From NCBI GenBank assembly GCA_017502305.1, contig JAFVVG010000038.1:1-64000 (forward strand): 64,000 nt of DNA. Reading direction: 5' to 3'. Under the pieces are notes generated by a model. The model made no database searches. It was given only the letters and a program-made list of their open reading frames with translations, and had not been told where the DNA came from. Position numbers and translations under genes: made by a program. Numbering within the stretch: the first letter of the stretch is position 1; each line of letters starts with the position of its first letter. Source of the DNA: Clostridia bacterium. GTDB taxonomy: Bacteria; Bacillota; Clostridia; Christensenellales; Aristaeellaceae. Below are positions 38,769 through 61,000 of this stretch, piece after piece.

Positions 38769-39359
38769 ATGTATCACTTTTTCGCTTACCTCTCCCGGCT
38801 GAAGTTCATCAGGCGCTGGGGCCTGATGCGCTCCACCCAGCCGGAAAACGACGCCGAGCATTCCCTGCAGGTGGCCATGATCGCCCACGGTATCGCGGCT
38901 ATTGCCCGGGATCGCTATGGCCGGGATGTGAATCCGGAACATGTGCTGGCGCTGGCCGTCTACCACGATGCGACGGAGGTCATCACCGGCGATATGCCCA
39001 CCCCCGTCAAGTATCACAGCCCGGAGCTGCGCGCTTCCTACAAGCAGCTGGAGAGCCTGGCTGCCCGCAAGCTGCTGACCATGCTGCCCGAAAGCATGCA
39101 GACGGAGTTTGGCGCGTATCTTACCGATGGCGATGATAACGCCCACCAGCTGGTGAAGGCGGCTGACCGCATCAGCGCATACAGCAAGTGCGTGGTGGAA
39201 AAGCGGGCCGGCAACCACGAGTTTGACGCCGCCGGCGATAATGTGCTCAAGGCCATCCAGCAGATTGATCTGCCGGAGGTGCGGGACTTTATGGAGGAGT
39301 TCATTCCTTCCTTTGCCCTGACGCTGGATGAAATGAACAACCACGGCGAACCGATTTGA
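38769..39359 (+). CDS. HD-domain 5'-deoxynucleotidase, YfbR-like
   Basis: A 196-residue HD phosphohydrolase. The metal site residues are in ENDAEHS, YHDATE and the later KAADRISAY, with the typical YfbR opening FFAYLSRLKFIRRWGLMRSTQPEND. YfbR removes the phosphate from deoxyribonucleoside 5'-monophosphates, feeding nucleoside salvage or balancing dNTP pools. No strong ribosome-binding site is seen, so it may be translated through the preceding DUF4358 message. It is convergent with surE and only a terminator separates the two nucleotidase genes. Confidence 0.9.
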   Translation: MYHFFAYLSRLKFIRRWGLMRSTQPENDAEHSLQVAMIAHGIAAIARDRYGRDVNPEHVLALAVYHDATEVITGDMPTPVKYHSPELRASYKQLESLAARKLLTMLPESMQTEFGAYLTDGDDNAHQLVKAADRISAYSKCVVEKRAGNHEFDAAGDNVLKAIQQIDLPEVRDFMEEFIPSFALTLDEMNNHGEPI

Positions 39360-39400: not shown

Positions 39401-40114
39401 TTATTTCAGCAGATCATACACGGCGGTATTGGTTCTGTCCACGGTGATGGGCGTGATGGAAATGTGCCCGCTGATGGTGGCGTCCGTGTCCAGGGAAAGG
39501 TCGCCCTGATTTCTGTGGACGCACACGCCGGTGGGCATATACAGGTGCTCGCCGCAAGAAGGGAACTCATCGGAATAATAGGGGCCGCCCTGACGGGTGA
39601 TGCGGATCTCGCCTGTGTATTGCTCGGGGATGTTCACGTTGTAGTGGCCGCACTTGTCCAAGAGGCTGCGGCGGGTGAAATATGCCCACACGTTGTCCAG
39701 CTGCGCTTCCGCGGTGGCAAAGGTTTCGAACCCGGTGGAGATGGCAATGCCCTTCACACCCAGGGCAGCGGCTTCGAAAATCGCGCCCACGGTGCCGGAA
39801 TAGATGATATCCATGCCGATGTTGGGGCCGCGGTTTACGCCGGAGAGCACTAGGTCAACGGTCTCGTGCTTGCCCAGAAGGGCGTAGCGCACACAATCCG
39901 CCGGGGTGGAATCCACGCTGTAGCCCTGGATGCCATGGGGCAGGGACACAGGTTCCACCGAAAAGGGCTGATGAATTTCAATGGCGTGGCTTTTGCCGCT
40001 TTGCTCAGATTTGGGGGCGTACACAACCACCTCACCCAGGCGGCGGGCAAAGTCCATCATGACCCGCATGCCGGGGGCGAAGATGCCGTCGTCGTTCGTC
40101 AGGAGTATTCTCAT
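39401..40114 (-). CDS. surE: 5'/3'-nucleotidase SurE
   Basis: A 237-residue nucleotidase that dephosphorylates 5'- and 3'-nucleoside monophosphates and can trim short polyphosphate. The metal site is MRILLTNDDG with Asp8 and Asp9, Ser40 in EQSGKSHAI, and Asn in LSGVNRGPNIG; YSGTVGAIFEA is also typical. The ATG at 40114 overlaps the stop of the upstream DHH gene as ATGA. It is the third gene of a tight minus-strand operon with two DHH phosphoesterases. Its ability to act on 3'-nucleotides matters because staphylococcal-type nuclease, encoded 4 kb away, yields 3'-phosphates. Confidence 0.95.
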   Translation of the reverse strand: MRILLTNDDGIFAPGMRVMMDFARRLGEVVVYAPKSEQSGKSHAIEIHQPFSVEPVSLPHGIQGYSVDSTPADCVRYALLGKHETVDLVLSGVNRGPNIGMDIIYSGTVGAIFEAAALGVKGIAISTGFETFATAEAQLDNVWAYFTRRSLLDKCGHYNVNIPEQYTGEIRITRQGGPYYSDEFPSCGEHLYMPTGVCVHRNQGDLSLDTDATISGHISITPITVDRTNTAVYDLLK

Positions 40115-41085
40115 AGCCAATCCTCGTGTGTTTCTTTGTATTCCTTTACCAGTGTGTCCGCGTCAGCCAGGAGGGCCTGCATTTCTTCCATGTTATAGAT
40201 GGTGGCGCCGCTGGCGCAGGCATGACCGCCGCCGCGGTACTTTTCAGCCAGGGTGTTGATGGCGACGAAGCGGCTGCGCAGACGGACGCGGATGGTCTGG
40301 GTTTCGCCGCTTTCGATAAAGGCCAGCCAGCACAGGCAGCCGCGGATGCCGTCCAGATAGCCGATGGCCGCGCAGGCCTCCTCGAAGGTGAGGCCGAAAC
40401 GGTTCTGAGCCTCCTGGCTGATGGCGACATAAGCCACGCCGTTTTCGGTGATGTGCATGGTCTCGTAGATGTAGGCCTTGAATTTCAGGGTGTGGAAATC
40501 CCGCAGGTACAGGTGGGCGTAGAGTCTTTCGGTATCCACGCCGTGATCCAGCATCAGCGCGGCCAGGCGCAGGGTTTCGCCGGTGACGCCCTCATACTGG
40601 AAACGGCCGGAATCGGTGACCATGCCGGTATAGATATAGGTGGCGGCGCGGCTGGTCAGGGTCAGCTCGTCCTGGAAGGTCTGATAGAAATCGGCGATCA
40701 TCTCGCAGGCGGAGGAGCGCTCCTCTTCCACCCAGCGGATATCACCATAGGGTTCGCGCTCGATATGGTGGTCGATCTTGATCAGCTCGCGGCAGAGCAG
40801 GTAGCGCTTGTTGGAAATGCGGTCCTCGGAGCCCACGTCGATAACGATGCCCAGCGCGTCTTCGTAGAGAGCATTGTCCACAGGCGCGTCATCCGGCCCG
40901 AGGAAGGCCAGGTAATCGGAATGCTCGTCGTCAATAAGATAGACTTCCTTTTCAGGCCAGGTGGCGCTGATAATTTCCTTCATACCCTTGGTGGCGCCCA
41001 CGCAGTCGCCGTCGATGCGCACATGCCGGAAAAGCATGATGCGGGAATAATCCTTGATCTTTTGCAGAATCAGCTCTTTGCTCAT
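40111..41085 (-). CDS. DHH-family phosphoesterase, NrnA-like (second of a tandem pair)
   Basis: A 324-residue DHH-DHHA1 protein of the NrnA group (nano-RNase and 3'-phosphoadenosine 5'-phosphate phosphatase). Manganese-binding motifs are RHVRIDGDCVGA, IVIDVGSEDR, KIDHHIERE and the DHHA1 signature GGGHACASGA at the C-terminus. It is a paralogue of the next gene upstream, with the same length and motif order but clearly diverged (RIDGDC here against NPDGDALGS there). The ATG overlaps the upstream stop and its own stop overlaps surE, both as ATGA, so the three products are made together. The substrate could be short oligonucleotides, pAp or cyclic dinucleotide products such as pApA. Confidence 0.9.
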   Translation of the reverse strand: MSKELILQKIKDYSRIMLFRHVRIDGDCVGATKGMKEIISATWPEKEVYLIDDEHSDYLAFLGPDDAPVDNALYEDALGIVIDVGSEDRISNKRYLLCRELIKIDHHIEREPYGDIRWVEEERSSACEMIADFYQTFQDELTLTSRAATYIYTGMVTDSGRFQYEGVTGETLRLAALMLDHGVDTERLYAHLYLRDFHTLKFKAYIYETMHITENGVAYVAISQEAQNRFGLTFEEACAAIGYLDGIRGCLCWLAFIESGETQTIRVRLRSRFVAINTLAEKYRGGGHACASGATIYNMEEMQALLADADTLVKEYKETHEDWL

Positions 41086-42023
41086 GAGGGTTCTCCTGTC
41101 AGCTCGTCCAGTTCGGCCAGCACGTCCATTGCCTCCTGGCGGTCCCGAAGGGTAGCGCCGCTGGCTTTGGCGTGGCCGCCGCCGCCGTGCCTGGCGGCAA
41201 TGGGATTGATGTTATAGCGGCTGGAGCGCAATTCGCACAGCACGCCCTTTTCTGTTTCGGTAAAGTTGACCCAGCTGTCCACGCCCTTGATATCCGCCAT
41301 CACGTTCACCATGCCCCGGGAGATGGTGAAGGTATCGGCGTTCAGCTGCGCCATTTCCTCCAGGGTGGTATAGATATAGGCCACGTTGCGGGGGGTGAAC
41401 TGGACCTTCAGCGTAAACTGGGCCCGCAGCTTCATCTGGTCGAAATCGGCGGCATATAGGCAGCGATACAGCTCATTGACGTCGATGGGATGCTCCATCA
41501 GAAAGGATGCCCGCTGAAAGGTGCGGGAGGAGGTGCAATCGTAGCGGAAACGGCCGGAATCGGTGACCATGCCGGTATATAGCAGCGTTGCCGCCGTGGG
41601 GCTGATCATCAGGCCGCATTCCATGACCATATCGGTGATCAGGCCGCAGCAGCTTTCGCTGGCGGCGTCGATGACCTCCACGGGGGCGATCTGCTCGCAG
41701 AAAACATGGTGGTCAATGCGTGCCAGAGCCTGGGCCAGGGTATAGCGCTCGTCGCTGATCAGGTGGCTTGAGCCGCAGTCAAGGATCACCGCCAGTGCGC
41801 CCTGATAGGATGAATCGGGGATGTCATCCATGACGGCGTCCGCCATGAAGCCGTAGCGCCCGGCACCGTCGCCCACGGCATACACCTTTTTGTCGGGAAA
41901 GTTCTCCCGGAGGATATGCTTCAGGCCCAGCTGGCTGCCCAGGGCATCGCCATCAGGGTTGTGATGCCGGTGAATGATGATGGTGTTGTGATCCTGGACG
42001 GCCTGGATGATCTGTTCAAACAT
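41082..42023 (-). CDS. DHH-family phosphoesterase, NrnA-like (first of a tandem pair)
   Basis: A 313-residue protein of the same DHH-DHHA1 family. Motifs are HRHHNPDGDALGSQLGL, VILDCGSS, RIDHH and GGGGHAKASGA, closer to canonical NrnA than its downstream paralogue. The ATG at 42023 follows an AGGAA site; a longer reading would begin inside the promoter. NrnA enzymes degrade oligonucleotides of two to five bases from the end and dephosphorylate pAp, completing RNA or DNA breakdown. It leads the DHH-DHH-surE operon behind a consensus promoter. Two copies in tandem suggest split substrate preferences. Confidence 0.92.
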   Translation of the reverse strand: MFEQIIQAVQDHNTIIIHRHHNPDGDALGSQLGLKHILRENFPDKKVYAVGDGAGRYGFMADAVMDDIPDSSYQGALAVILDCGSSHLISDERYTLAQALARIDHHVFCEQIAPVEVIDAASESCCGLITDMVMECGLMISPTAATLLYTGMVTDSGRFRYDCTSSRTFQRASFLMEHPIDVNELYRCLYAADFDQMKLRAQFTLKVQFTPRNVAYIYTTLEEMAQLNADTFTISRGMVNVMADIKGVDSWVNFTETEKGVLCELRSSRYNINPIAARHGGGGHAKASGATLRDRQEAMDVLAELDELTGEPS

Positions 42024-42054
42024 AGGCGTTCCTCGCTGAAAAAACATGATATCT

Positions 42055-42084: not shown

Positions 42085-42121
42085 CAAAAACGGAGGCCGC
42101 ATCCAATCCGGATACGGCCTC
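42085..42121 (-). terminator. Terminator of the RDD-ABC-nuclease-OB-repeat operon
   Basis: Read on the minus strand, GAGGCCGTATCC/GGATGCGGCCTC around GGATT is followed by CGTTTTTGTTT. It lies 15 bases after the OB-repeat gene stop. Confidence 0.8.
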
Positions 42122-42136
42122 ACGCTGTTGATCGGC

Positions 42137-43984
42137 TTACTTCACAATGGTGCAGCCCTTGTCGAATTCAATGGTGCCCTTGTAGTTCTTGATGATGCCG
42201 TTCACGGTGATCACGTCGCCCACAGCCAGGGTCTCGGCGCCTTCGCCGGTCAGGCGGTAGCACATGACCTTGTAATCAGCCATGCCGCCGGGCACGATGG
42301 TCACGGTGATATTCTTATACTCGTCGCTCCAGGCAGTATCGATGGTGACGATCTCGCCGGTCAGGGTCTTGGCTTTATCCTGGGCCAGGCCCTCTTCCAG
42401 GGTGTAGGCGCCCATGGCCACACGGACGTCATTGACGGAACCCACGGGGATCATCACGCAGCCCTTGTCAAACTCGATGGTGCCCTTGTAGTTCTTGATG
42501 GTGCCGGCCACGGCGATGGTCTGGCCCACAGCCAGGTCCTGGGCGCCTTCGCCGGTCAGGCGGTAGCACATGATCTTCTGCTCGGCCTTGCCGTCGCACA
42601 CGATGGACACGGTGATGTTCTTGTATTCCTCGCTCCAGGGGGTGTCGATGGCGACGATCTCGCCTTCCAGGGCGGTGGGGGCGGGCATGGCAGCGCCGTC
42701 TTCCAGGGCATAGGCAGCGTCCAGGATAGCAGCCTGGCTGATGATTTCGCCCATACCGACCAGCACGCAGCCCTTATCGAACTCGATGGTGCCCTTGTAG
42801 TTCTTGATGATGCCTTCCACGGTGATCTTGTCGCCCACGGCCAGGGTCGCGCAGCCCTCGCCGGAGAGACGGTAGCACTGGATGGTCTGGTCGGCCAGAT
42901 CGCCCACCTGGATGGTCACAGTGATGTTCTTGTATTCCTCGCTCCAGGGAGTGTCGATCTTCACGATTTCGCCATACAGGCGCTGGGCGTCTTCCAGGGC
43001 CAGGCCGTCTTCCAGGGTGTAGGCGGCAGCCACGATCTCCTCATAGCTCAGGCCTTCCAGGATCATGGCGGCGGGAACCTTGTGCTTGAAGGTCAGTTCA
43101 GCGGTCTGGCCGGTCTTGCCGGTGAGGGTGGCGGTCAACACATACTGCACTTCTTCGGGGTTCTTTTCATCCACGTCGATGGTGACCATCTTGTCGTCGC
43201 CGGGGATGATCTTGACGGTCTCGGAATCAGCCGTCCACTGGATGGGATACTCCTCGCCGCCGATGTTGATTACGCCCACAACGGTGTAATCCACAGGGGT
43301 GGTCTCGGTAGCGCTCTTGTACATGGTGCGCAGATAGGAGCGGGCAGCAGCCAGCTCGGTGTCCTTCTCTGCGGGGACCTCAGCAGGAACCTCGGCGGGT
43401 TCTTCGGCGGGTTCTTCGGCGGGAACCTCGGCGGGTTCTTCAGCGGGCACTTCCACGGCGGTCACAGCAGCGGCAGCGGCTTCCAGCTCAGCGATCTTGG
43501 TCAGGCTGGCTTCATTCTCAGCCTTGGCAGCAGCCAGGTCGGCAGCGGCGGTCTCGGCGGCAGCGTTCAGGCTGGCCACGCTGGCTTCCAGCTCAGCGAT
43601 CTTGGCCAGGCCGGTTTCGGCTTCGGCCTTGGCGGCAGCCAGGTCGGCAGCAGCGGTCTCAGCAGCGGTCTCGGCGGCAGCGGTCAGGCTGGTGACGTTG
43701 GCCTCCAGCTCGGCGATCTTGGCCACAGAGGTTTCGTTCTCGGCCTTGGCGGCAGCCAGGTCGGCAGCGGCGGTCTCGGCGGCAGCGTTCAGGCTGGCCA
43801 CGCTGGCTTCCAGCTCGGTCACCTTGGCGGTGGCGTCGTTCAGCTGGGTCTGCAGGGAATCGCGCTCGGCGGTGATGCTGTTCAGGTCAGCGGAGACATT
43901 GGACTTCTGCACGCCGAACAGGCCGGCAACGGCCACGGCGATGGCCAGCAGGATAGCGAGAATTGCAACTGGCTTCTTCATCAA
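42137..43984 (-). CDS. Membrane-anchored surface protein: coiled-coil stalk plus three tandem OB-like repeats
   Basis: A 615-residue protein. The N-terminal hydrophobic segment (VAILAILLAIAVAVAGLFG) is a signal anchor. Residues 35-190 are an Ala-rich coiled coil of about three near-copies of a 33-39-residue unit (KIAELEASVASLNAAAETAA). A PAEEPAEVPAEE linker follows, then a beta domain (230-310). Three copies of a roughly 100-residue module occur at about 319-422, 423-523 and 524-615, each with GEIV-IDTPWS-EYKNITV, CYRL-GEGA--LAVGD and IKNYKGTIEFDKGC; these look like OB folds. I know of no assigned function. It is the last gene of the operon with the SNase lipoprotein and ABC importer, 15 bases after the SNase stop, so nucleic-acid binding at the surface is plausible. 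Confidence 0.8.
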   Translation of the reverse strand: MMKKPVAILAILLAIAVAVAGLFGVQKSNVSADLNSITAERDSLQTQLNDATAKVTELEASVASLNAAAETAAADLAAAKAENETSVAKIAELEANVTSLTAAAETAAETAAADLAAAKAEAETGLAKIAELEASVASLNAAAETAAADLAAAKAENEASLTKIAELEAAAAAVTAVEVPAEEPAEVPAEEPAEEPAEVPAEVPAEKDTELAAARSYLRTMYKSATETTPVDYTVVGVINIGGEEYPIQWTADSETVKIIPGDDKMVTIDVDEKNPEEVQYVLTATLTGKTGQTAELTFKHKVPAAMILEGLSYEEIVAAAYTLEDGLALEDAQRLYGEIVKIDTPWSEEYKNITVTIQVGDLADQTIQCYRLSGEGCATLAVGDKITVEGIIKNYKGTIEFDKGCVLVGMGEIISQAAILDAAYALEDGAAMPAPTALEGEIVAIDTPWSEEYKNITVSIVCDGKAEQKIMCYRLTGEGAQDLAVGQTIAVAGTIKNYKGTIEFDKGCVMIPVGSVNDVRVAMGAYTLEEGLAQDKAKTLTGEIVTIDTAWSDEYKNITVTIVPGGMADYKVMCYRLTGEGAETLAVGDVITVNGIIKNYKGTIEFDKGCTIVK

Positions 43985-43999
43985 TAGGAACCTCCCTTT

Positions 44000-45295
44000 T
44001 TATTCGATGGTGATGCTGTTCATGGTCAATACCTTGATCTGGTAAGCGCCCTCGTAATAGTCCACAACGCCTTTCACATGGATGGTCTTGCCCAGGAAGG
44101 CCTCGGCGGTGACCGGTTTGTTCTCTGCATCGTAGAGCACGGCGGTGCGCACCAGCACTGTTTCGCCGTCCCTGGTACAGGTCAGCGTCAGGGCGCCGTT
44201 GGAGGAGCTGTCCTCGTTTTCGGTGGTGTAGACTTCCTGCACCTCAAGGCCCTTCATTTCCACCGTGGTGGCCAGGGCCAGCTCCGCATAGGCGTAGGTG
44301 GTGGGGCCCTCCTCGGTGATGATGGTAACGCTGCCCTTCGCGAAGGTTTCGGCTTCGGTGGGTACATAGGCGGGCTGATGCCCGCTGGAGAGAAGCTGGA
44401 TGTTGCCTGGATCCTTCGGCTTGATCATGCGGTAGGTCAGGCCGGAAACCTGCCAGGTGCCGCCTGCCTCGTAGTACTGCATCGTACCCACGATCCGGGC
44501 TTCGTTGCCCACGGACAGGATGTCCAGGCCCTTGCCGCTCATGTTGTAGCCGTAGTAGACGGACATGCCGTAGTACAGACCGGTTTCCGCGTCGTAATCC
44601 TCAATGAAAACGGCGTTGTTGTGGTTCAGGGTAATGATGCCCTTGAAGGCCACCTTCTTGCCGTTATATGCCTGGGGATGGGTCCGGAGCTCCTTCAGGG
44701 TCAGCTCAATGGCGTCGCCGTAATAGAAATCAGGATCCTTCTGACCGGAATAAACATTCAGCTTCTGCTCCCGGGCCTGGTTGATCGCCGCCATGCAGAC
44801 AGAGCCGTAGCGGTTCTGAAAGGACGAGTTGGCGATGGCCAGGCCGTTTTGCAGGATTTCGATGTTCAGGTTGCGGTAAGCTTCGCCCTCGGCGGTTTGA
44901 TACCACACCCATACCAGATGGCGCTCGGAAGTGGAATCAAGGTTCCAGCTGCCATCATCGCTCTCAATGATGATGGATGTCGCCTGGGAAAGCTTTTCGC
45001 GGGTGAACTCGGCGGCTTTTTTGCCATATTCCTCGATCTTGCCTGTGATTTCCGGGGTGTTGATGGCCAGGTATCTGGCCTTGATCACGCCACCGGGGAT
45101 CACGCTTTCGGATACGTGGAAATGCGTGGTGTCGCCATCCACAAAGGTTTTGACGCTCACTTCAGCCTTGGCCGTTTCGCTGGCCATGTTCAGCCTGATG
45201 GAGCCGGCATAGTCGGTGATCTCACCGGCCATGCCGCAGCCCATCATGCTCACAAGCAACGCGAGCGCAAGAATCAAACATGCACAGTGCTTCAT
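44000..45295 (-). CDS. Staphylococcal-nuclease-type lipoprotein with OB-fold (YhcR-like) tail domains
   Basis: A 431-residue extracellular nuclease candidate. The signal peptide ends at MMGC, giving lipidated Cys20. Residues 45-160 are an SNase domain: VDGDT (Asp53, Asp55), ARYLAINTPE with Arg74 and Glu82, and ERHLVWVWY with Arg125. These match the catalytic Arg-Glu-Arg of the family; the metal-ligand Asp between them is Asn79. Residues 190-300 resemble the OB-like domain of Bacillus YhcR (LKELRTHPQAYNGKKVAFKG, LDILSVGNEARIVGTM), and a last OB-like segment follows (FLGKTIHVKGVVDYYEGAYQIKV). It starts one base after the stop of the solute-binding protein gene, so the two are co-translated. Its likely role is to cut extracellular DNA or RNA at the cell surface. 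Confidence 0.85.
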   Translation of the reverse strand: MKHCACLILALALLVSMMGCGMAGEITDYAGSIRLNMASETAKAEVSVKTFVDGDTTHFHVSESVIPGGVIKARYLAINTPEITGKIEEYGKKAAEFTREKLSQATSIIIESDDGSWNLDSTSERHLVWVWYQTAEGEAYRNLNIEILQNGLAIANSSFQNRYGSVCMAAINQAREQKLNVYSGQKDPDFYYGDAIELTLKELRTHPQAYNGKKVAFKGIITLNHNNAVFIEDYDAETGLYYGMSVYYGYNMSGKGLDILSVGNEARIVGTMQYYEAGGTWQVSGLTYRMIKPKDPGNIQLLSSGHQPAYVPTEAETFAKGSVTIITEEGPTTYAYAELALATTVEMKGLEVQEVYTTENEDSSSNGALTLTCTRDGETVLVRTAVLYDAENKPVTAEAFLGKTIHVKGVVDYYEGAYQIKVLTMNSITIE

Positions 45296-45296
45296 C

Positions 45297-46682
45297 TTAC
45301 CAGATCGCGTATTCGCACTCCTCGATAGCGGTGGCGAAAGCGTCGGCGATCACGGTGTCGTCATCGCCTTCGGTGGTCAGGCAGGCGCACAGCAGGTCGC
45401 CGACCTGGTCACGGGCTTCGGAGGAGCCGTTGAAGGCGGGGGAGGTGTAGTAGGCGTCGGCCTGCTCCAGGCAAACCTTGGCAGACAGGGCGGAGACGTA
45501 GTTGCCGCCGTCAGCGCTGGCCAGGAACTCGGCATAGGCCTCGTTTTCGGCAACGGACTTCAGCACGGGCACATAGCCGGAGGCCATGGAGAACTCGGCC
45601 TGGAATTCCACGTTGGTGGTCAGGAACTTCACAAACAGCCAGGAGGCGATGACTTCCTGGGGGTTGGCCTTCTTGAAGATGGTCACGCTGGGACCCTGGG
45701 AGATGACCTTCTTGTTCTCGGCGTTCATCTGGGGAATGGTGGCGATGCCCACTTCAAAGGGATAGGTGCCGTCGGGGCCGGCCGCAGGACGCTGATAGGT
45801 AGCGCCGGCGGAGGAGCCGATGGACATGTAGCTCTTGACCTCGGTGGTGGAGGTGAACAGGCCGGAGGTGTAAGCGCCATACAGGGTCTGGGTGGTGATG
45901 TAGCCCTTCTTGTACCACTCGCGGAAGGTCTTCATGGTGGCGTGGTTCTGCTCGTTGTCGAACAGGAAGTGGGGCTCGGTGGCGGAAGTGTAGGGAGCCT
46001 GGTTCTGCTCGCACATGGTGATGAACCAGTTGGCTTCGGAGTCATAGCCCAGGGGGATGGAGTTGGGGTCAAGCTCCTTGATCTTGGCGCAGACGGCTTC
46101 CAGCTCGTCCCAGGTGGTGGGCACGGCGATACCATTGGCCTCGAAGAAGGTCTTGTTGTAATACAGAACCTCGGTGGACTTGGACAGGGGCATGGTGTAC
46201 ATCAGGCCGTCGCCGTACTGCATGCCCTCGTTGTAATAACCTTCGATGAAATCATCCTTCTGCTCGGCGGTCAGGCCCAGAATTTCGGTGGTGCCGTCGG
46301 CGCGGGTGATCACCGTTTCGCTGTTGATCATCTCGTCCAGGGGCTGCACAGCCTTGGCAAGGTTATACAGGGCCACGTGGTCGGGATAGCAGTAGGCGAT
46401 GTGGGGCTGGCTGCCCACGGTGATTTCGGTGGAAATCTGGTCGCGGACGTCGTCGTAGCCGCCCAGGGAAGAATGCTCAACCTTGATGTTGGGGTAGAGC
46501 TGGTTGAACTCGGCGATGTAGCTTTCCAGAACGCCAACCAGGTTGGCACCCATGGTGTGGTAGAACTTGATGGTGACTTCGCTGCCGTCGTAGCCTTCAG
46601 CAGGCACTTCGAAAGCGAAGGCGCTGGTCATGCAGGAGAGCAGCATGGCTACCAGCAGGAGCATGGAAACGAGCTTTTTCAT
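45297..46682 (-). CDS. ABC importer solute-binding protein, Ugp/Mal type
   Basis: A 461-residue family 1 extracellular solute-binding protein. The signal peptide may be cleaved after AFA, or Cys17 in LLSC may be lipidated. Characteristic segments are VTIKFYHTMGANLVGVLESYIAEFNQLYPNIKVEHSSLGGYDDVRDQIS, MPLSKSTEVLYYNKTFFEANGI and PTTWDELEAVCAKIKE, which resemble UgpB, the glycerol-3-phosphate binder, more than maltose binders. The ligand cannot be deduced with certainty. It is the fifth gene of an operon encoding ATPase and two permeases, and directly precedes the nuclease lipoprotein, which suggests that nuclease products or sugar phosphates are the cargo. Confidence 0.92.
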   Translation of the reverse strand: MKKLVSMLLLVAMLLSCMTSAFAFEVPAEGYDGSEVTIKFYHTMGANLVGVLESYIAEFNQLYPNIKVEHSSLGGYDDVRDQISTEITVGSQPHIAYCYPDHVALYNLAKAVQPLDEMINSETVITRADGTTEILGLTAEQKDDFIEGYYNEGMQYGDGLMYTMPLSKSTEVLYYNKTFFEANGIAVPTTWDELEAVCAKIKELDPNSIPLGYDSEANWFITMCEQNQAPYTSATEPHFLFDNEQNHATMKTFREWYKKGYITTQTLYGAYTSGLFTSTTEVKSYMSIGSSAGATYQRPAAGPDGTYPFEVGIATIPQMNAENKKVISQGPSVTIFKKANPQEVIASWLFVKFLTTNVEFQAEFSMASGYVPVLKSVAENEAYAEFLASADGGNYVSALSAKVCLEQADAYYTSPAFNGSSEARDQVGDLLCACLTTEGDDDTVIADAFATAIEECEYAIW

Positions 46683-46751: not shown

Positions 46752-47621
46752 TTAGCCCTTGATGCCCGAGCGGCTCACGCCGGACATGATGTACTTGCGC
46801 AGGAAAACGAAAACCAGGAAAAGGGGCAGGGAAACCAGAGCCACGGCGGCCATCTGCACGGGGTAGTTCACGTCGCCGGAGGTCTCGGTAAAGGCGTTGC
46901 GCAGGCCGTTGGTGATCATGCGGTGCGCCTCGTCGTTAGCCACCAGGCGGGGCCAGATGTAGGAGTTCCACGCGCCCATCATCTTCAGGATGGTGATGGA
47001 GATCAGCGTGGGAAGGGACAGGGGAACCATGACCTTCCACAGGTACTTCCAATCGCTGGTACCGTCCACCTTGGCGGCCAGATACAGCTCGTTGGGAATC
47101 TGCAGGAAATTCTGGCGCAGCAGATAGATGTAGAACACGCTTACCAGGAAGGGGACGATCAGCACCGTGTAGGTGTTGATCCAGCCCAGGGAGGTTACGG
47201 TGGAGTAGTTGGTGATGGTGAACAGTTCGCCGGGGATCATCATGGTAGCCAGCAGCAGGGCGAAGAGGGTCTCCTTGCCCTTGAACTCAAGCCTGGCGAA
47301 GGCGAAGGCCGTCAGGATGGTGATCACCAGGGAAAGCAGCGTGGATACCAGGCCCACGATCATGGTGTTGATGAACAGGCGGCCCAGGTTGGCGGTGGTG
47401 AAGGCGTCGATATAGTTGCTCCACAGGATAATCTGGGGCCAGAAGGTGGGCGTGGACATGCGGTACTCGTCCAGGGACTTCAGGGAGGAGATGATCATCC
47501 AGTAGAAGGGGAAGAGCACGATCAGCGCCATGACCAGCAGAAAAATGTAGTTCAGGCTCAGGGAAAAGGTGCGGCCAATCTTCTGTGCGAAGGAGACCTT
47601 CTGCATGTTTTTCGCTTGCAT
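46752..47621 (-). CDS. Carbohydrate-type ABC permease, UgpE/MalG-like
   Basis: A 289-residue inner-membrane component with six transmembrane helices (LNYIFLLVMALIVLFPFYWMIISSLK opens the family). The EAA loop that docks the ATPase is ELYLAAKVDGTSDWKYLWKVMVPLSLPTLISI. It pairs with the UgpA-like permease encoded 15 bases upstream to form the channel. It belongs to the CUT1 class of importers that take up oligosaccharides, glycerol 3-phosphate or similar solutes. A 69-base gap separates it from the solute-binding protein gene; no strong terminator is seen there. Confidence 0.94.
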   Translation of the reverse strand: MQAKNMQKVSFAQKIGRTFSLSLNYIFLLVMALIVLFPFYWMIISSLKSLDEYRMSTPTFWPQIILWSNYIDAFTTANLGRLFINTMIVGLVSTLLSLVITILTAFAFARLEFKGKETLFALLLATMMIPGELFTITNYSTVTSLGWINTYTVLIVPFLVSVFYIYLLRQNFLQIPNELYLAAKVDGTSDWKYLWKVMVPLSLPTLISITILKMMGAWNSYIWPRLVANDEAHRMITNGLRNAFTETSGDVNYPVQMAAVALVSLPLFLVFVFLRKYIMSGVSRSGIKG

Positions 47622-47636: not shown

Positions 47637-48581
47637 TTAATAGTGCACGCGCTTTTTGCTGACCTGCAGGTTGATCAGGGTTACCACCAGGATGATGGCA
47701 AACAGGATCAGCGCTGCGGCGCTGGCGCGGCCCTGGCTGTTGGTGCTCAGAGCGTCGTAGATGAAGCCGACCATGGTGTTCAGCCGGCCTGCGCTGTCGG
47801 GCGGGCCCATCTTCTCGCCGAAGATACCCACGATGCTGGTGTATTCCTTGAAGCCGCCGATAAAGCCGGTGATGATCACATAGGCCAGCATGGGGGAAAG
47901 CAGCGGCACGGTGATGCGGGTGAAGATGCGGCGGCGGGGGGTGCCGTCCACCTTGGCGGCATCGTAATACTGCTTGTTGATGCTCTGCAGGCCGCCCAGC
48001 AGCACCAGGATCTTGAAGGGCAGGGCGTTCCACACGATGTAGACGATCATAACGAACATGTTCGCCTCATAGGTGGAGCCGTAGTTGATCCAGTTGATGG
48101 GGTTGCCGCCGAAGAACTGAATCACATTGTTGATGATACCCGCGGTGACGATGATCTCGTTCTCGGTGCCATAGAAGCCGCCCACGATGTTGAACATGGC
48201 GGCAAACACCATGCCGATGGCGATGGAGTTGGTCACATAGGGCAGGAAGAAGATGGTCTGCAGGCCCTTCTGCAGGAATTTAATGGAGTTCAGCGCCACG
48301 GCGATCAGCAGTGCCAGCAGGGTGGAGATGGGCACTGTCCACACGCACAGGAGCACGGTGTTTTTCAGGCAGGAAACAAACCTGCGGTACTTGATGACCT
48401 TTTCAAAATTGCCCAGGCCAAACTCGAAAACGGCGCCGCCGGCAGCCTTCAGGCCGGAGTAGTTTTCCAGGAAGGCCATGCGGACGGTGTTGATGATGGG
48501 CCATACGGTGAACACCAGCAGCAGCGCGATGGCCGGCGCCAGGTACAGCCAGGCTTTCCATTGATGCTTGCTTTCAACCAT
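47637..48581 (-). CDS. Carbohydrate-type ABC permease, UgpA/MalF-like
   Basis: A 314-residue permease with six transmembrane helices (AWLYLAPAIALLLVFTVWPIINTVRMAF) and an EAA loop NKQYYDAAKVDGTPRRRIFTRITVPLLSPMLAY. It forms a heterodimer with the UgpE-like protein. Its ATG lies one base after the ATPase stop. In place of MalF it lacks the large periplasmic P2 loop, as is normal for Gram-positive CUT1 importers. Confidence 0.94.
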   Translation of the reverse strand: MVESKHQWKAWLYLAPAIALLLVFTVWPIINTVRMAFLENYSGLKAAGGAVFEFGLGNFEKVIKYRRFVSCLKNTVLLCVWTVPISTLLALLIAVALNSIKFLQKGLQTIFFLPYVTNSIAIGMVFAAMFNIVGGFYGTENEIIVTAGIINNVIQFFGGNPINWINYGSTYEANMFVMIVYIVWNALPFKILVLLGGLQSINKQYYDAAKVDGTPRRRIFTRITVPLLSPMLAYVIITGFIGGFKEYTSIVGIFGEKMGPPDSAGRLNTMVGFIYDALSTNSQGRASAAALILFAIILVVTLINLQVSKKRVHY

Positions 48582-48582
48582 G

Positions 48583-49686
48583 TTACTTCACCTCGAAATG
48601 GATCCGCTCCTCGGTTTCCCGGTTGAAGAGGAAAACCTTGTGAGCCTTGAGGGAATAACGGACGGTTTCCTTGGCGGCGTCCAGCTTGTTGTCGGCATTG
48701 ATAATGGAACGGACCACCGGGTTGACCGAGGCCTCGTGGGTGGAAACGATGCTTACATCGCGGCCCATGACCTCCACATTGCTCAGCTGGCAGTGCAGCG
48801 GGCCCTTCTTGTCCAGGGTGAAGCCCTCGGGGCGGATGCCCACATAGACCTTCTGGTCGGGCACTTTCTTCATATCCAGCACATGATCCTGGCCAATGAA
48901 CAGCTTGCCGCCCACGACCTCGCCCTCAAAGACGTTGATGGGGGGCGTGCCCAGGAACTTGGCCACGAACAGGTTGGCGGGGCTGTCGTAAACCTCTTGC
49001 GGTTTGCCGATCTGCTGCACCACGCCCAGCTTCATCACCACGATCATATCGGAGATGGACATGGCCTCCTCCTGGTCGTGGGTGACGAACACGGTGGTGA
49101 TCTTCGTTTCCTTCTGGATGCGGCGGATCTCCTCGCGGGTCTGCAGTCTCAGACGGGCGTCCAGGTTGGAAAGGGGCTCGTCCAGCAGCAGCACCCGGGG
49201 CATCTTCACCAGGGCGCGGGCGATGGCCACACGCTGCTGCTGGCCGCCGGAAAGCTCCGAGGGCTTGCGATCCATCAGTTCCTCGATCTGCACCAGGCGG
49301 GCGGCCTCGTGTGAGCGCTCCAGCATGGTTTCCTTGCTCAGCTTATCCTTGCCCTTCAGGTTCTGCAGGGGGAAGAGGATGTTCTGCTTCACCGTCATGT
49401 GGGGATAGAGGGCATAGTTCTGGAAAACCAGGCCGATGCCGCGGTTTTCGGTGGAGAGCGAGGTAACGTCGTCATCGCCGAAATAAATCTTGCCGCTGGT
49501 GGGCTTCTGCAGGCCGGAGATCATATACAGCGTGGTGGACTTGCCGCAGCCCGAGGGGCCAAGCAGGCCGATCAGCTTGCCATCGGGGATGGTGAAGCTG
49601 AAATCATTCACGGCAACGACTTCCTTATCCGCCTTCTTATCGCGGCTGGGGAAGATTTTGGTGAGGTTTTCCAGTACGATTTTCAT
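48583..49686 (-). CDS. ABC importer ATPase, UgpC/MsmK-like
   Basis: A 367-residue ATPase. The ATG at 49686 is the family start (MKIVLENLTKIFPSRDKK). Walker A GPSGCGKST, signature LSGGQQQRVAIARAL, Walker B VLLLDEPLSNLD and the H-loop VTHDQEEAM are intact. The C-terminal 130 residues carry the TOBE/MOP regulatory domain of MalK/UgpC proteins (KVYVGIRPEGF). Many Clostridia use one shared MsmX-type ATPase for several CUT1 importers, so a dedicated copy within this operon is notable and suggests the importer works as a self-contained unit. The permease gene follows after one base. Confidence 0.95.
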   Translation of the reverse strand: MKIVLENLTKIFPSRDKKADKEVVAVNDFSFTIPDGKLIGLLGPSGCGKSTTLYMISGLQKPTSGKIYFGDDDVTSLSTENRGIGLVFQNYALYPHMTVKQNILFPLQNLKGKDKLSKETMLERSHEAARLVQIEELMDRKPSELSGGQQQRVAIARALVKMPRVLLLDEPLSNLDARLRLQTREEIRRIQKETKITTVFVTHDQEEAMSISDMIVVMKLGVVQQIGKPQEVYDSPANLFVAKFLGTPPINVFEGEVVGGKLFIGQDHVLDMKKVPDQKVYVGIRPEGFTLDKKGPLHCQLSNVEVMGRDVSIVSTHEASVNPVVRSIINADNKLDAAKETVRYSLKAHKVFLFNRETEERIHFEVK

Positions 49687-49720
49687 GGCATATCCCTTTC
49701 TTATGTAAAGAATTGGTTGA

Positions 49721-50482
49721 TCAGTAGGTTTCCTGAGCGGCCTTTTCAGCATGCAGCTTTTTCTTGTAGGCGATCATATCCTCCCGGGTGTTGAAGATCA
49801 TCTGGCTGGGAAGGTCCACGCACACGGTGGAGGCGATGCCGTCGTGAATGGCGGCGTTGGTGCGGGTGGCGATCAGCATGATGATGTTGATCAGCACGAT
49901 GGCGCCGATGATCAGGGGAGCCACAATGCCGACGCTGCCAAAGAAGATCATCAGGAGCATCAGCACGGGGATCATGGTTTCGATGGTGTATTTTCCCAGC
50001 ACCGTGCGGATAAACAGGGTGGTGCCGCTGATCTTCACGCCATCCTGCCGCATAACGCCGATGGCGAAAATCTTCTTGCCCAGGGTTTGGCCGTTGCCCA
50101 GGCACATGGGAATGGTGAACTCCATGACCATGTATCCCAGCAGAATGGAAAGGCTGGTGACCACCAGCGTCAGCTGCATGGTCATGTTGTAGGCATAAAC
50201 AGCCTCCGCATCGGCGGCCAGCGCGTCGTAGGCCGCGTTCAGCCGGCTGAGCGCTTCTTCCTCCAGGGCTTCATATTCGGCCAGGGAGAGGCGAAGGTTT
50301 ACGTCGTAGGCTTCCTCATATCTGGCATAGCATGCGTCCAGCGTGGCGCTGTATCCGTCAAAGCCCAGCGCGGCGGACATGATCCAGGCGAAGAGCACGA
50401 TCACAATGCACAACAGAATAAAATCAAACAGCGCCGCGGAGCAACGTTTCCACATGCTCGCCTTTTGCAGGTCACAGATCAT
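49721..50482 (-). CDS. RDD-family membrane protein
   Basis: A 253-residue membrane protein. The ATG at 50482 is preferred for its GAAAGG site; an ATG at 50506 is possible. It starts with KRCSAALFDFILLCIVIVLFAWIM, in which R, D (and a second D later) give the RDD signature, and has about four or five transmembrane segments with a GQTLGKKIFAIGVM loop typical of the family. A soluble stretch at about 45-100 is inserted after the first helix. RDD proteins have no firm general role; some are sodium/proton antiporters. It is the first gene of the importer-nuclease operon, ending 34 bases before the ATPase start. Confidence 0.85.
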   Translation of the reverse strand: MICDLQKASMWKRCSAALFDFILLCIVIVLFAWIMSAALGFDGYSATLDACYARYEEAYDVNLRLSLAEYEALEEEALSRLNAAYDALAADAEAVYAYNMTMQLTLVVTSLSILLGYMVMEFTIPMCLGNGQTLGKKIFAIGVMRQDGVKISGTTLFIRTVLGKYTIETMIPVLMLLMIFFGSVGIVAPLIIGAIVLINIIMLIATRTNAAIHDGIASTVCVDLPSQMIFNTREDMIAYKKKLHAEKAAQETY

Positions 50483-50537
50483 GGAATCGCCTTTCTCGAA
50501 ATCCATATTCTTTTCAATCCACAGGATCTCTACATAC

Positions 50538-50566
50538 ATTATACTACATGCTTTTTGGAAAATCTA
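50538..50566 (-). promoter_or_regulatory. Probable promoter of the RDD-ABC-nuclease operon
   Basis: On the minus strand TATAAT (50543-50538) is clear; TAGATT (50566-50561) at 17 bases is a poor -35, so activation may be required. Confidence 0.5.
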
Positions 50567-51497: not shown

Positions 51498-51691
51498 TTG
51501 CTTTGCTACTGTCAAAATGCGCGAAATGCGTCTTTTTTCGCATTATAATTCGGCAGTAAATTCGGCATTGCAAACACTGGCAACAAATGGAATTATAAAG
51601 GTAACGTCTCCCTCTTGCACTGTGAAACGCGACAGGGGAGCAGTTATTCGTGAGAGCCACAATATATCGGATGAACACGGAGGATGATTGG

Positions 51692-54600
51692 ATGCGTAAG
51701 CTGATGAACTGCCTGGTATGCCTGGCGCTGATGGCGCTGCTTTTTGCGCTGCCTATGACTGCCATCGCCGAGGACATTGATTTTGACAGCTTTATTGGTT
51801 ACGTCGAATGCGGTGATAGTCTTGGCGTGGGGGTTGACAAAAGCGGAACGCTGACGATCTTCAACTGGGATATGTATGATACGTCCGCAAGAAGCCTGTA
51901 TGATATCGATTATACGGATGACGTCAATCAATGGGAGGATTGGTTCGGCATTGATATTGTCAACGTGGTTTTTGCGACCAAGGTTGACTATATTGGTGCG
52001 TACTTTTTTGCAAACTGCGACACGCTGACCAGCATCACTTTGCCGGATACGCTGGTCGAGATCGGCTCCGGGGCTTTCATGGGCTGTGAAAACCTGACCA
52101 GCATTAACCTGCCCGAGGGCCTGACTACCATCGGCGCGGAAGCGTTCTATGCTTGCGAGAGCCTGACCAGCCTTGACCTGCCGGAAAGCATGACCACCAT
52201 TGGCGCCGGCGCTTTTTCCGACTGCAAAGGCCTGACCGGCATGGAGCTGCCGGAGGGCGTAACGGCGATCAAAGAATATACGTTCAGCGGCTGCGAGAAG
52301 CTGGCCGCCATCTCCCTTCCCGACAATGTGACAAGCGTTTCTGCCAATGCTTTCCAGGACTGCGCGGCGAAATTGTATGCCGGAATCAGCAGCAAAACCG
52401 CCCTGGCCCTTTCCAAGGCCAGCATTGCCTTTACCCTGCCGGGATACGAAGCGGTGGGCCTGAAGGTTACGGAAACCTCCGGTTACCGCACCTGTTCCCT
52501 TTGGCGTTATGATGCGGATGCCACCGAGATTGTTGTTCCCGAAGGTGTGACGATCATCGACGCATCTTTTATGAACAACACAACGCTTGTCAGCATCACC
52601 CTGCCGGAAAGCCTGACCAGTCTTAAATCCTCCCAGTTCTCTGGCTGCACCGCGCTGACCACCGTCAAGCTTTCGGAAGAGCTGACCAGCATTGGTTCTT
52701 CTGCGTTCAAGAACTGTTCCAGCCTGACCACCGTCAATCTGCCGGAAACGCTGACCAGCTTGGCCACATATATGTTCCAGAACTGCACCAGCCTGACCAG
52801 CATTACCTTGCCGGAAAAACTGAAAAGTATCCCCAGCTATGCTTTTTCCGGCTGCACCAGCCTGACGGATGTGAATCTTCCTGCCGGCGTGACCTCCCTT
52901 GGCAACGGGGCGTTCAACGGCTGCCCCGTCCAGTGGAGCGTGGACAGGCACAGCACCCAGGCGCAGATGCTTTCCAAGGCCGGTTACACCTTTGTTGACC
53001 CGGAATACCCCGAATTTAGCCTGAAAACAGATGTCTACGACAACGCCAAGTTTGTTATTGTGGATTGCAAAGATGACGTTACCAGCGTCACCATTCCCGA
53101 TGATATGGTCGGCATCAAGGATAACGCTTTCTCCGGCTGCACGGCCCTTGAGAGCATCACCCTCCACGATAACTTTGAGGACATCGGCACCTATGCCTTT
53201 AAGGACTGCCCTGCCACCATTTACGCTAATCTCCTTACCCTGACGGCCACCAGGCTTCCCGAGGGTTCCTTCGTTGTGCCTGAATATCCCAACCTGCTCT
53301 TCAGCGTTTGGTGCAGCAGCTCTCCCTTCAACGTCAGCAATACTTCGGTCACGCTGATCGGCATCCGTGAGCACACCGATGTGCTTACCGTGCCCGATGT
53401 GGTCTCTACCGTGAGAGCCTCCGGCTTTGCCGATTTTACCGGCAAGTTCTGCGCCAATATGAACAGCAAGGCTGCCCTTGCGCTGACAAAGGCCAATCTG
53501 CCTTTCTCTCCCGTGGAATGCCTTGACCTGACCATCACCGTCACCGGAAGCGGCTCCACGCGTACCGTTGCCGTTACGGGCTGCGCCGAAAGTGCCACGG
53601 AGGTGGTGCTTCCCGAAGGCGTTACCACCATTGCCGCTTCCGCCTTTGCCAACTGCCCCAACCTGAAAAGCATTACCCTGCCGGAGAGCCTCACCAGTGT
53701 GAATGCCAAGGCGTTTGACGGCTGCACGGCGCTGCGCTATGCCGCCGTTGGCGGTAAGGCGGCCAGGGTGCTGGGCACCAAGGGCTATACCACGCCGGAC
53801 TGCCCCCAGCTGACGCTGAATACCACCTACGCCGGCATGGCTGTGGTGGTGGACTGTGCCGCGGACGCAACGGAAATTGTGGTTCCCGAGGGCGTTACCT
53901 CCATTGCCGCCTCCGCCTTTGCCGAGTGCGCCTCCCTGACCAGCGTTACCCTTCCGGAAGGCGTGACCTCCATTGGCAACAATGCTTTCAAAGGCTGCAC
54001 CGCCCTGACCAGCGTTACTCTGCCGGAAAGCCTGAAAAGCATTGATTACAACGCATTCCTCAACTGTACCAGCCTGAATAGCATCCATCTGCCGGATCAT
54101 ATGACCTCTGTAAACAACAGTGCTTTCGTTGGCTGCCCGGCTGCCCGATATGTGAACATGGACAGCGCAACGGCGCTTACGATCTCGAAGTCCCTTTCCT
54201 TCAACGTGCCCGGGTATGAATATCTGGACCTGAAGGCGACGGAAGATGCCGATGGCGTCCGTACCTTTACGGTGGCGGATTGCAAAACGGACGTCACCTC
54301 GGCTGCTTTCCCTGAGCGGGTGACCGCCATTGGCGCCTATGCGTTCGAGGGCTGCGCCGCGCTGACAAGCATTGTCATTCCCGAGGGCGTGACCAGCATT
54401 GACAATTACGCGTTCAAAAACTGCATCGCTCTGGCAAGCGTTTCCCTGCCCAAGAGCCTGACCAGCATCGGTTCCGCGTTTGACGGCTGCACCGCCCTGA
54501 CCAGCCTGACGCTGCCTGATAACCTGACCACCATCAGCAGATATATTTTCGACAATTTTTCCACTACGCTCTACGCGCAGATGGACAGCGACACCGTCAA

Positions 54601-58002: not shown

Positions 58003-61000
58003 TCAGGGGTCAATGCACGCAAAGCCGTGGGCGAGGGCCCATTCCTCGGCGTAGGTGCCGTTGGCGCAGATGATGGATAGCTGGCATCCGTCGAACGCGT
58101 CATCCGCGATGTCTGTTACGCTGGCGGGAATGCTGACATACCGCAGCGCCGCACTCCCGGCGAAGGCCCTGGCGGTGATGGCGGCGACACCGCCGGGAAT
58201 GACCACGGCCTGGGCGGAGATACCCTCGAAGGCCGAAGCGTCAATGGTTGTCAGGGCTGAGGGAAGGCGGAGCACATTCTTCAGCTTGGAAAGGGGATTA
58301 GCCTGCTGATAGCTCCATTCCGCATCGGTAAGCGGCGCGTTGCCGGCGTCGATCTGGAGATAGAAGGCATCCTCGGGGGAAAGGTAGTAGCAGTAGAGCA
58401 CCTGGCTCAGGTCATTGCAGCCTTCGAAAGCGTAGTTCCGCACAGTCTGCAGCGATGCGGGAAGCGTGATGGATTCCAGGCCGTAGCAGGCACCGAAGGC
58501 GTAGCTGCCGATGGTTGTAACCCCCTCGGGGAGACGGATGCTCCTGAGCTTGTTGCAGTTCCAGAACATGTTGGCGGGGATGGTCTCCAGGCCTTTGGGA
58601 AGCTGAACGGAGGTCAGGCTGTCGCAATTCTCAAGCAAACCGTCGCCCAGGGAGGATACGCCTGCCGGAATGGTGATGCTCACAAGGCCGGAGCCGGAGA
58701 ATGCATAATTCCCGATGGAGGTGACGCCGGCGGGAAGCGTGAGCTCGCTCAGGGCCGAGGCGCCGCTGAAGGCGCTGGCGCCGATGCTTGTCACCGTTTC
58801 GGGAATGGAGGCCTGCGTCATGCGGGAGAGGGAGCTGAACGCATTGTCGCCAATAGACCTGACGCCATCGCCGATCACGATGGACTCAATCCTGGCGGCA
58901 TGGGCCTGCCAGGGGGCGGTGCTGCCGCCGGTAAAATTGGGCATGGTGCCGCGGCCTGTGATGGAAAGGATGTTTTCCTCCACACGCCATTGCAATCCGG
59001 CGGTCAGCAGACCGGAGGTGGCGGCGGGATATTGGTCGTTTCCATCCGGGAACTGCCACAGGGCACTGGTGAGGGGAATGTTGCCCGAGCCGATGGAAAT
59101 GGTGGAAGCGTTGGATTTCGGGCCGCGGTAGACAACGGTGCCCAGGGAGGAGCAGCTGCTGAAGGCGCTGTTTCCAACCGCGAGCAGGGTATCGGGCAGG
59201 GAAACCTCCGTCAGCTTGCTGCAGCCCGTGAAGACGTCGGTGCCGATGGTGGTCACGCCATCGGGGATCGTCAGGCTGCTCAGGCGGCGGCAATACCAGA
59301 AGAGGCTGTCGGGCAGCGTGGTCAGTCCGGCGGAAAGCGTGATTTTCTCCAGGTCGGAGCAGTTGGTAAAGACGCCCCACTGAAGGCTTGTGACGGAATC
59401 CGGCAGAACGATCTCCTTCAGGCCGCTGTCGCTGAAGGCGGAATCCTCCAGGATGGTAACATGGGCAGGAAGGGTAAGGGAAGCCAGGCTTCTGGTGCCG
59501 GAGAAGGCGCTGCTGCCAATGCGGGTGATTGTATCGGGCAGGGATGCGTCCTTCAGCGCGCTCAGCCGGTTGAAGGCGTAATCGCCAATACTGTCGATGC
59601 CGGCGTCCACGGTCACATGCTCAATGGCGGAGGCCAGGTTGTTCCAGGGGCTGGGCCGGTCATAGGTGAAGTCAGGCATGGGGCCTGTGCCGGCGATGGA
59701 CAGGATGCCATCGCTGAAGGACCAGCTTATGGCGGCAGTCAGCATGCCGGAGGTGGCGGCGGGGAAATCGCCGGTATAGTCTGTGCAGCGCCACACAGCT
59801 TTGTTCAGGGGGCCGTTTTCCATGGAGATCTGGATGATGGAAGCCTCGGCGGCTGTGCCGCGGAAGGTTACGTCCGTCAGCTTGCTGCAGCCGAAGAAGG
59901 CGGAACTCTCAATGGATTGGAGCGAGGCGGGCAGGGAAACGCTGGTCAGCCCGCTGCAGAACCAGAAAGCGGAATAATCAATGCGCTGGAGCTGGTCGGG
60001 GAGGGTGATGGAGGTCAGGGCCTCGGAGTTGGCAAGGAGATTATCCGGCAGCGAAGCCAGGCCGGAAGGCAGGTTGAGCGTCACCAGCTGATCGCAGCTG
60101 CTGAAGGCGCCGCTGCCCAGCTCGGTGACGGACGCGGGCAGCGTCAGCTCCTGAATGCCCGAGCCGGAGAAGGCATTCGCCATGATGGTGGTCACGCTTG
60201 GGGGGATGACAAGGCCCGCCAGGCTGGTATCATTGCTGAAGGCGCCCCGGCCGATGCTTTTGACCGTATCGGGAATGCTGACGCTGGTCAGGTTGGTGAA
60301 ATCGCTGAAGGTGTAATCGCCGATGGTCTTCACACCGGGTTCGATGATCAGCGTGCGGATCTGGGCGGCATATCTGTTCCAGGGGGCGTGGAAGGTGGAG
60401 CTGCAGTCAGGCATGGCGCTGCGGCCGGATACAACAAGGGTGCCGTTGAAGTCCAGGTGCCAGTCAAAATCGGGGCTGAGAATGCCCTCGTCATAGGCGG
60501 GATAGCTACCGATGCTGTCGGTGCAGGTCCAGGTCGCGTTGATCAGGGAAGCGTTGCTCAGGCCGATGATCAGCTTGCCGGCGTCCTCCAGGGTGCCGTT
60601 GAAGGTAACGCTGCGCAGGTTTTCCGTCTGATCAAAGGCAGCGTTGCCGATGGCGTTCAGCACATAGGGCAGGGAAACGGACTCCAGGGCTTCGCAGTTC
60701 GCGAAGGCGGAAGCGCCGATGGAGCTGACGCTGGGGGGAATGGTGATGGACTTCAGACCGGAACGGAAGAACAAGCTGTCCGGGATCTGGCTCAGTCCGG
60801 CGGAAAGCGTGACCTGGGTCAGGCTGGAGCAGTTGGCGAATGCGCTGTATCCCAGGGTAGTCAGGGTGGAGGGCAGCGTGAGGTGGGTGAGAGCCTCGCA
60901 GTTGAAGAAGGCGTTATAATCGATGGTGGTGAGGCCCTCAGGCAGCGTGATTCCGGTCAGCGCGGAGCAGCCGTAGAAAGCATAGCGCCCGATGCTTACC

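Follow-up and report, generated by a model that had tools for sequence, protein, structure and literature searches.

The window, by which we mean the whole 64,000-nucleotide stretch of DNA that was analysed, carries on its minus strand a run of genes encoding, in order, an RDD-family membrane protein, an ABC ATPase, two permeases, a solute-binding protein (SBP), a staphylococcal-nuclease-type protein (SNase; P0002) and a protein with three OB-like modules (P0001). Gaps between the genes from the ATPase through the OB gene are 1–69 bp, and by the coordinates below the ORFs for the RDD protein and the ATPase overlap. A terminator-like hairpin lies 3' of the OB gene and is followed by two DHH/DHHA1 genes and SurE:

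49721–50539, minus strand: RDD-family membrane protein, with which the conserved run begins (PF06271; synteny).
48583–49752, minus strand: MalK/UgpC-type ABC ATPase (ABC_tran; OB_MalK at 25.3, cutoff 27, and TOBE_2 at 16.7, cutoff 21, fall below their Pfam cutoffs).
47637–48581, minus strand: ABC permease 1 (PF00528).
46752–47621, minus strand: ABC permease 2 (PF00528).
45297–46682, minus strand: importer solute-binding protein (SBP_bac_8, E 3.5e-36).
44000–45295, minus strand: secreted or lipoprotein SNase-family nuclease with a C-terminal OB-like region, P0002 (PF00565).
42137–43981, minus strand: OB-repeat surface protein gene, P0001, 614 aa (sequence; orthologues in the same operon slot at 38 loci).
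42093–42121, minus strand: candidate Rho-independent terminator, 13-bp stem and T-run, directly 3' of the OB gene (consensus match only).
41082–42026, minus strand: DHH/DHHA1 phosphoesterase 1, NrnA-like (Pfam; co-occurs with SNase and SBP in 60 genomes).
40111–41085, minus strand: DHH/DHHA1 phosphoesterase 2 (Pfam; synteny).
39401–40120, minus strand: SurE nucleotidase (PF01975, E 3.2e-49).

The DHH genes form a separate transcription unit behind the candidate terminator and lie on the opposite strand in most relatives. Adjoining the SurE/DHH/DHH block is a gene for a YfbR-like 5'-deoxynucleotidase (38769–39356, plus strand, E 7.5e-73), which may be part of one neighbourhood for nucleotide salvage with them. 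Next to the operon there are also two very long ORFs of secreted type (58003–63984, minus strand, 1993 aa; 51650–56950, plus strand, 1766 aa).

A single ORF was confirmed at 42137–43984 on the minus strand, with the ATG at 43981 as the better start. Its product reads from a hydrophobic N-terminus through an Ala-rich coil, a PAEE linker and an Ig-like domain into three OB modules:

43904–43981, minus strand: N-terminal hydrophobic anchor or signal peptide, aa 1–26 (sequence; without a lipobox Cys).
43460–43903, minus strand: Ala-rich coiled-coil region of 35-aa repeats, aa 27–174 (105-bp period; missing in most orthologues).
43364–43459, minus strand: PAEE-rich linker, aa 175–206 (net charge -10; TRF periods).
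43064–43363, minus strand: Ig-like domain, aa 207–306 (constant part of the gene across relatives).
42758–43024, minus strand: OB module R1, aa 320–408, HMM-bounded (repeat alignment; AF2 pLDDT 97.6).
42449–42715, minus strand: OB module R2, aa 423–511, HMM-bounded (repeat alignment; Ig + three-OB AF2 model).
42143–42409, minus strand: OB module R3, aa 525–613, HMM-bounded (repeat alignment; Ig + three-OB AF2 model).

Unlike P0001 itself, many of its relatives have a lipobox at the N-terminus. The coil is a tandem array of its own (TRF: 105-bp period, equal to 35 aa or five heptads, 3.1 copies), and the PAEE linker shows periods of 12, 24 and 36 bp. The original prediction of a coiled coil with its own repeats followed by a PAEE-rich linker is borne out by these periods; the coil as an essential stalk is ruled out by its lack in most orthologues, and it is lineage-specific. 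The Ig-like domain is retained even in relatives in which the OB modules have been replaced. In the AlphaFold2 (AF2) model it consists of an N-terminal helix and is then all-beta; a weak match to aBig_2 was obtained for it in one relative only.

The OB-like character of the modules, which had been put forward as open to refutation by a non-OB prediction, held up in structural modelling. An AF2 model built with 116 module sequences (pLDDT 97.6, pTM 0.89) shows five main strands after an N-terminal helix. Its best match in the PDB, by Foldseek and VIA-align, is the anticodon-binding OB domain of LysRS (Z 9.7, rmsd 3.0, 93 residues; 16–18% identity with most LysRS matches), followed by AIM2/p202 HIN, telomere end-binding and PolC OB domains. 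In a model of the Ig-like domain with all three modules (pLDDT 90), the first module again matches LysRS. The module is thus predicted with confidence to be an OB fold. At the profile level, 48 of the 116 modules match PF01336 (OB-fold nucleic acid binding domain) with E 0.01 or better; whole P0001 reaches 27.6 bits against a gathering cutoff of 27, with no single stretch passing. Weak profile matches to STN1 and RPA32 (E 0.04–0.45) were seen among PDB sequences, and a PDB search with a single sequence returned one irrelevant match.

Across the 116 modules, near-invariant residues (N45, R64, N87, Y88) fall in the L12 loop, in strand 3 and in the L45 hairpin, where OB folds usually bind their ligands, and position 63 in the same region is mostly Tyr or Phe. 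The modules share their fold with PF01336 and the LysRS anticodon-binding domain but differ from these in being extracellular, tandem and acidic, and in carrying two conserved Cys. The latter, at alignment positions C62 and C98, are conserved in 89% and 92% of the 116 modules and may form a disulfide or bind a metal, the protein being extracellular and its host an anaerobe. Mean net charge over the 116 modules is -6 (-10, -8 and -5 for R1, R2 and R3 of the window), which argues against simple electrostatic binding of nucleic acid and so makes a plain DNA tether less convincing. Glycans and proteins are ligands of OB folds as well, and a common fold shows no function.

The three consecutive modules, of ~102 aa each, had been described as near-identical and as more alike than expected for old duplications. 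Near-identity applies to long exact stretches, as EYKNITV, CYRL-x-GEG and IKNYKGTIEFDKGC are exact in R1, R2 and R3 as had been claimed; it does not apply overall, with 66–72% protein identity and 76–78% DNA identity. TRF independently recovers the array (309-bp period, 2.8 copies, score 933). The inference about age fails on comparison with relatives: window R1 and the R1 of the nearest relative (L039) are 94% identical, against 72% for R1 and R3 and 66% for R1 and R2 within the window's own protein. Across relatives each module is nearest to the module at its own position (R1 to R1, R2 to R2, R3 to R3), and in a tree of 51 repeats the grouping follows position, needing 3 label changes where at least 2 are required and shuffled labels need 24.4 on average. 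R1, R2 and R3 are thus position-specific lineages across genera and not recent copies, and recent amplification or gene conversion is ruled out by the positional orthology. The triplication is older than the genera compared, and it is constraint that has kept the modules alike.

A genome scan with the repeat alignment yielded 47 loci, which, having been found through OB-module patterns, are a sample of close relatives. The SNase gene lies directly upstream of the OB gene in 38 of them, always with a gap of 0–65 bp, and in 29 all six upstream genes are present in order on one strand. The expectation that the repeats accompany a nuclease and an importer, which mainly unrelated contexts would have contradicted, is in keeping with these 38 loci. 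Among the nine without an upstream SNase, three end at a contig edge (L042, L073, L075), one keeps DHH and SurE (L084), and five have OB modules in other contexts (L062, L079, L082, L083, L085). Outside the operon, modules occur in a dockerin protein (L062), in L079, L082 and L085, and in genome G001, which has one OB module, in an unrelated protein.

The DHH/DHHA1 pair, often with SurE, adjoins the OB gene in relatives' loci. Across 60 related genomes the sets with SNase (16), SBP (16), DHH1 (17) and OB modules (15) nearly coincide: all 16 genomes with SNase have DHH1 and 43 have neither (Fisher P 1e-13, kinship ignored). SurE largely tracks the gene set, and within the genus the set is found in 11 genomes and missing in 7. 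G013 is without SBP, its contig starting just upstream. Unlinked co-occurrence of DHH in G032, G046 and G053 was dropped as independent evidence, because the OB matches of G032 and G046 lie near a contig end and may yet be linked to the DHH genes. A further locus (L104, genome G028) has the importer and the DHH pair but not the SNase and OB genes, with genes resembling a branched-chain-amino-acid-type ABC transporter adjoining the SBP instead.

In a class-wide sample of 291 genomes, G313, from a different lineage of the class, has the full operon in the same order with two OB proteins (L115); G292 has the importer and SNase with an OB protein downstream of them (L118), and in G187 and G254 OB proteins adjoin DHH and SurE. 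At the cut-offs applied, phylum-wide samples of 299 genomes each for SBP and SNase yielded no genome but that of the window, and the system therefore looks lineage-restricted. For a phage origin, no tblastn match was found in 50,697 phage records. Anti-phage defence drew no support from PADLOC: its models gave no match for P0001, the RDD protein or either DHH protein, and P0002 matched a single SNc+LTD model, with 40.5 bits and by way of its SNase part.

Among the relatives inspected, the gene at this position is built from an anchor and the Ig-like domain followed by one to seven OB modules, mostly three. Alternatives after the Ig-like domain are another repeat module of ~150 aa, both module types together, or a C-terminal Endonuclease I (L074). 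In two genomes of the same genus (G002 and G010), two copies of the ~150-aa module, which is unrelated, replace the OB modules (L102:6285–8513 and L103:7340–8665, both minus strand); the two types coexist in L046, L068, L070, L071, L074 and L077. A search for a solved relative of the substitute module gave none that was convincing, the only match being a designed beta-trefoil (E 0.002, 24 residues). OB modules are also fused to Endonuclease I (PF04231) in L074:7578–12095 and in L083:1733–6379, the latter outside the operon and with CBM and ricin-type lectin domains as well. This fusion to a second, unrelated nuclease family is the best evidence that the modules act on nucleic acids. At L062:4242–10853, OB modules form part of a dockerin and F5/8C protein that adjoins a dockerin GDPD (glycerophosphodiesterase) protein, an arrangement which suggests use of the modules in a cellulosome-like setting.

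P0002 matches the staphylococcal nuclease family PF00565 with 41.1 bits (cutoff 21). Equivalents of SNase D21, R35, T41, E43 and R87 are invariant in 39 sequences, so that five catalytic or Ca positions are kept, and at the equivalent of D40, which binds Ca in the Staphylococcus enzyme, 36 of the 39 have Asn. Of the components of a CUT1/MalK-type sugar importer, the SBP, both permeases and the ATPase core score above their Pfam cutoffs, and the C-terminal MalK/TOBE domain of the ATPase scores below. The nearest solved relatives of the SBP are sugar-type and UgpB-type (glycerol-phosphate-type) binding proteins, and we know of no nucleotide ligand.

Since the OB gene nearly always lies directly behind a secreted nuclease and an importer, its product probably helps to capture DNA or RNA as food. 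We consider it on balance probable that the operon serves foraging for nucleic acid and that the OB-repeat protein is its capture component at the cell surface. In such a system the secreted SNase-type nuclease would cut environmental DNA and/or RNA, and the surface-held OB-repeat protein would bind the polymer or its fragments via the canonical OB faces of its tandem modules, keeping them close to nuclease and importer. The MalK/UgpC-type ABC importer with its SBP would take up the products as oligonucleotides, nucleotides or a derived sugar phosphate, and the two cytoplasmic DHH/DHHA1 phosphoesterases and SurE would finish degradation to nucleosides and phosphate. Here we infer three steps: the binding of nucleic acid by the modules, the cargo of the importer, and the action of DHH and SurE on imported products. 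The original prediction of a surface tether for the nuclease substrate thus stands as the best reading, because of the OB fold, the adjacency to nuclease and importer and the Endonuclease I fusions, and with the support of operon structure and co-occurrence; what the acidity weakens is the simple DNA-tether form of it. Against foraging speak, besides this acidity, the sugar-type SBP relatives, the change of D40 to Asn, the module swap in G002 and G010, the modules outside the operon and the separate DHH unit.

The acidity also keeps two other explanations in play. The OB modules might be a protein–protein scaffold that joins SNase and SBP at the surface with no contact to nucleic acid. Acidic modules, the strict adjacency of OB and SNase genes and the two relatives in which a different repeat takes the place of the OB modules above the same Ig-like base would all fit such a scaffold. 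It is made unlikely by the other proteins, a nuclease fusion and the dockerin protein among them, in which modules occur with neither SNase nor importer, and by the position of conserved polar and aromatic residues, which lie on the usual ligand face. We are somewhat more doubtful that the modules bind glycans for a sugar-type importer while the nuclease merely clears DNA from mucus or neighbouring cells. The sugar-type SBP structures point that way, as do L062 and L083, where OB modules stand alongside dockerin, F5/8C and carbohydrate-binding modules, and an alpha-rhamnosidase gene near the G313 locus, but the conserved operon has no glycoside hydrolase, its constant partners are SNase, DHH/DHHA1 and often SurE, and Endonuclease I is fused to OB modules. 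A non-nutritional role, whether in eDNA-based attachment, in anchoring a biofilm or in salvaging phosphate alone while the importer meets some other need, would suit a surface protein and recalls the reclaiming of biofilm eDNA for phosphate by B. subtilis YhcR, NucA and NucB (PMC11458576), but is improbable given an importer and nuclease kept in one order across genera and present or absent together.

Read as a foraging system, the operon resembles the DNA-degradation loci of Izemoplasma in kind and differs in importer, nuclease and capture protein. In loci of Ca. Izemoplasmatales and Hujiaoplasma, secreted nucleases are encoded together with ABC transporters and with phosphoesterases, which in Hujiaoplasma include NrnA, and there are genes in these loci that nucleic acids induce (PMC8289736, PMC8397711, PMC10470597). 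As in the window, a secreted nuclease, a surface protein (nucleic-acid-binding there), phosphoesterases and an ABC transporter share one locus. The Izemoplasmatales loci differ in their several nucleases, in a lamin-tail nuclease protein and in transporters that are probably for nucleosides or nucleobases and for phosphate; the window operon instead has a single SNase, an importer of the MalK/UgpC type, an RDD protein and the Ig + OB-repeat protein. The lamin-tail Pfam domain found no match in the operon proteins scanned, including both secreted ones. The Izemoplasmatales loci were likened by their authors to polysaccharide utilisation loci (PULs). The window shares with these loci the arrangement of a surface binding protein beside a degradative enzyme and an importer, the first being a SusD/SusE-type capture protein in PULs. 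In the window the importer is of the ABC type and nucleic acid the presumed substrate, and no sequence relation is claimed.

Secreted or wall-bound nucleases carrying OB-type regions are known in YhcR and ExeM. B. subtilis YhcR reclaims eDNA phosphate (PMC11458576), and deletion of the OB region of Shewanella ExeM nearly abolishes nuclease activity (PMC6085458). In both, OB region and nuclease share one polypeptide, whereas the window has two adjacent genes with an importer in the operon, and fusion is seen only in L074 and L083. By Pfam, P0001 is without a nuclease domain, and P0002 has SNase only, with its OB-like C-terminal part and no EEP or calcineurin match. Literature searches found no paper describing this gene order or the OB-repeat protein.

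More tentatively, the operon may represent a PUL-like nucleic-acid utilisation system of animal-gut Clostridia, with a MalK/UgpC-type importer of oligonucleotides or nucleotides, a secreted nuclease and a capture protein in which exchangeable modules (OB arrays, the other repeat or a nuclease fusion) sit on a fixed Ig-like base. Gut bacteria living on dietary, host and phage DNA or RNA, and the machinery they use, are poorly known. If the foraging reading is true, the operon would mark that niche genetically in gut Clostridia of ruminants and poultry. It would also provide a case in which to test whether an importer of the sugar type can carry nucleotides or oligonucleotides.
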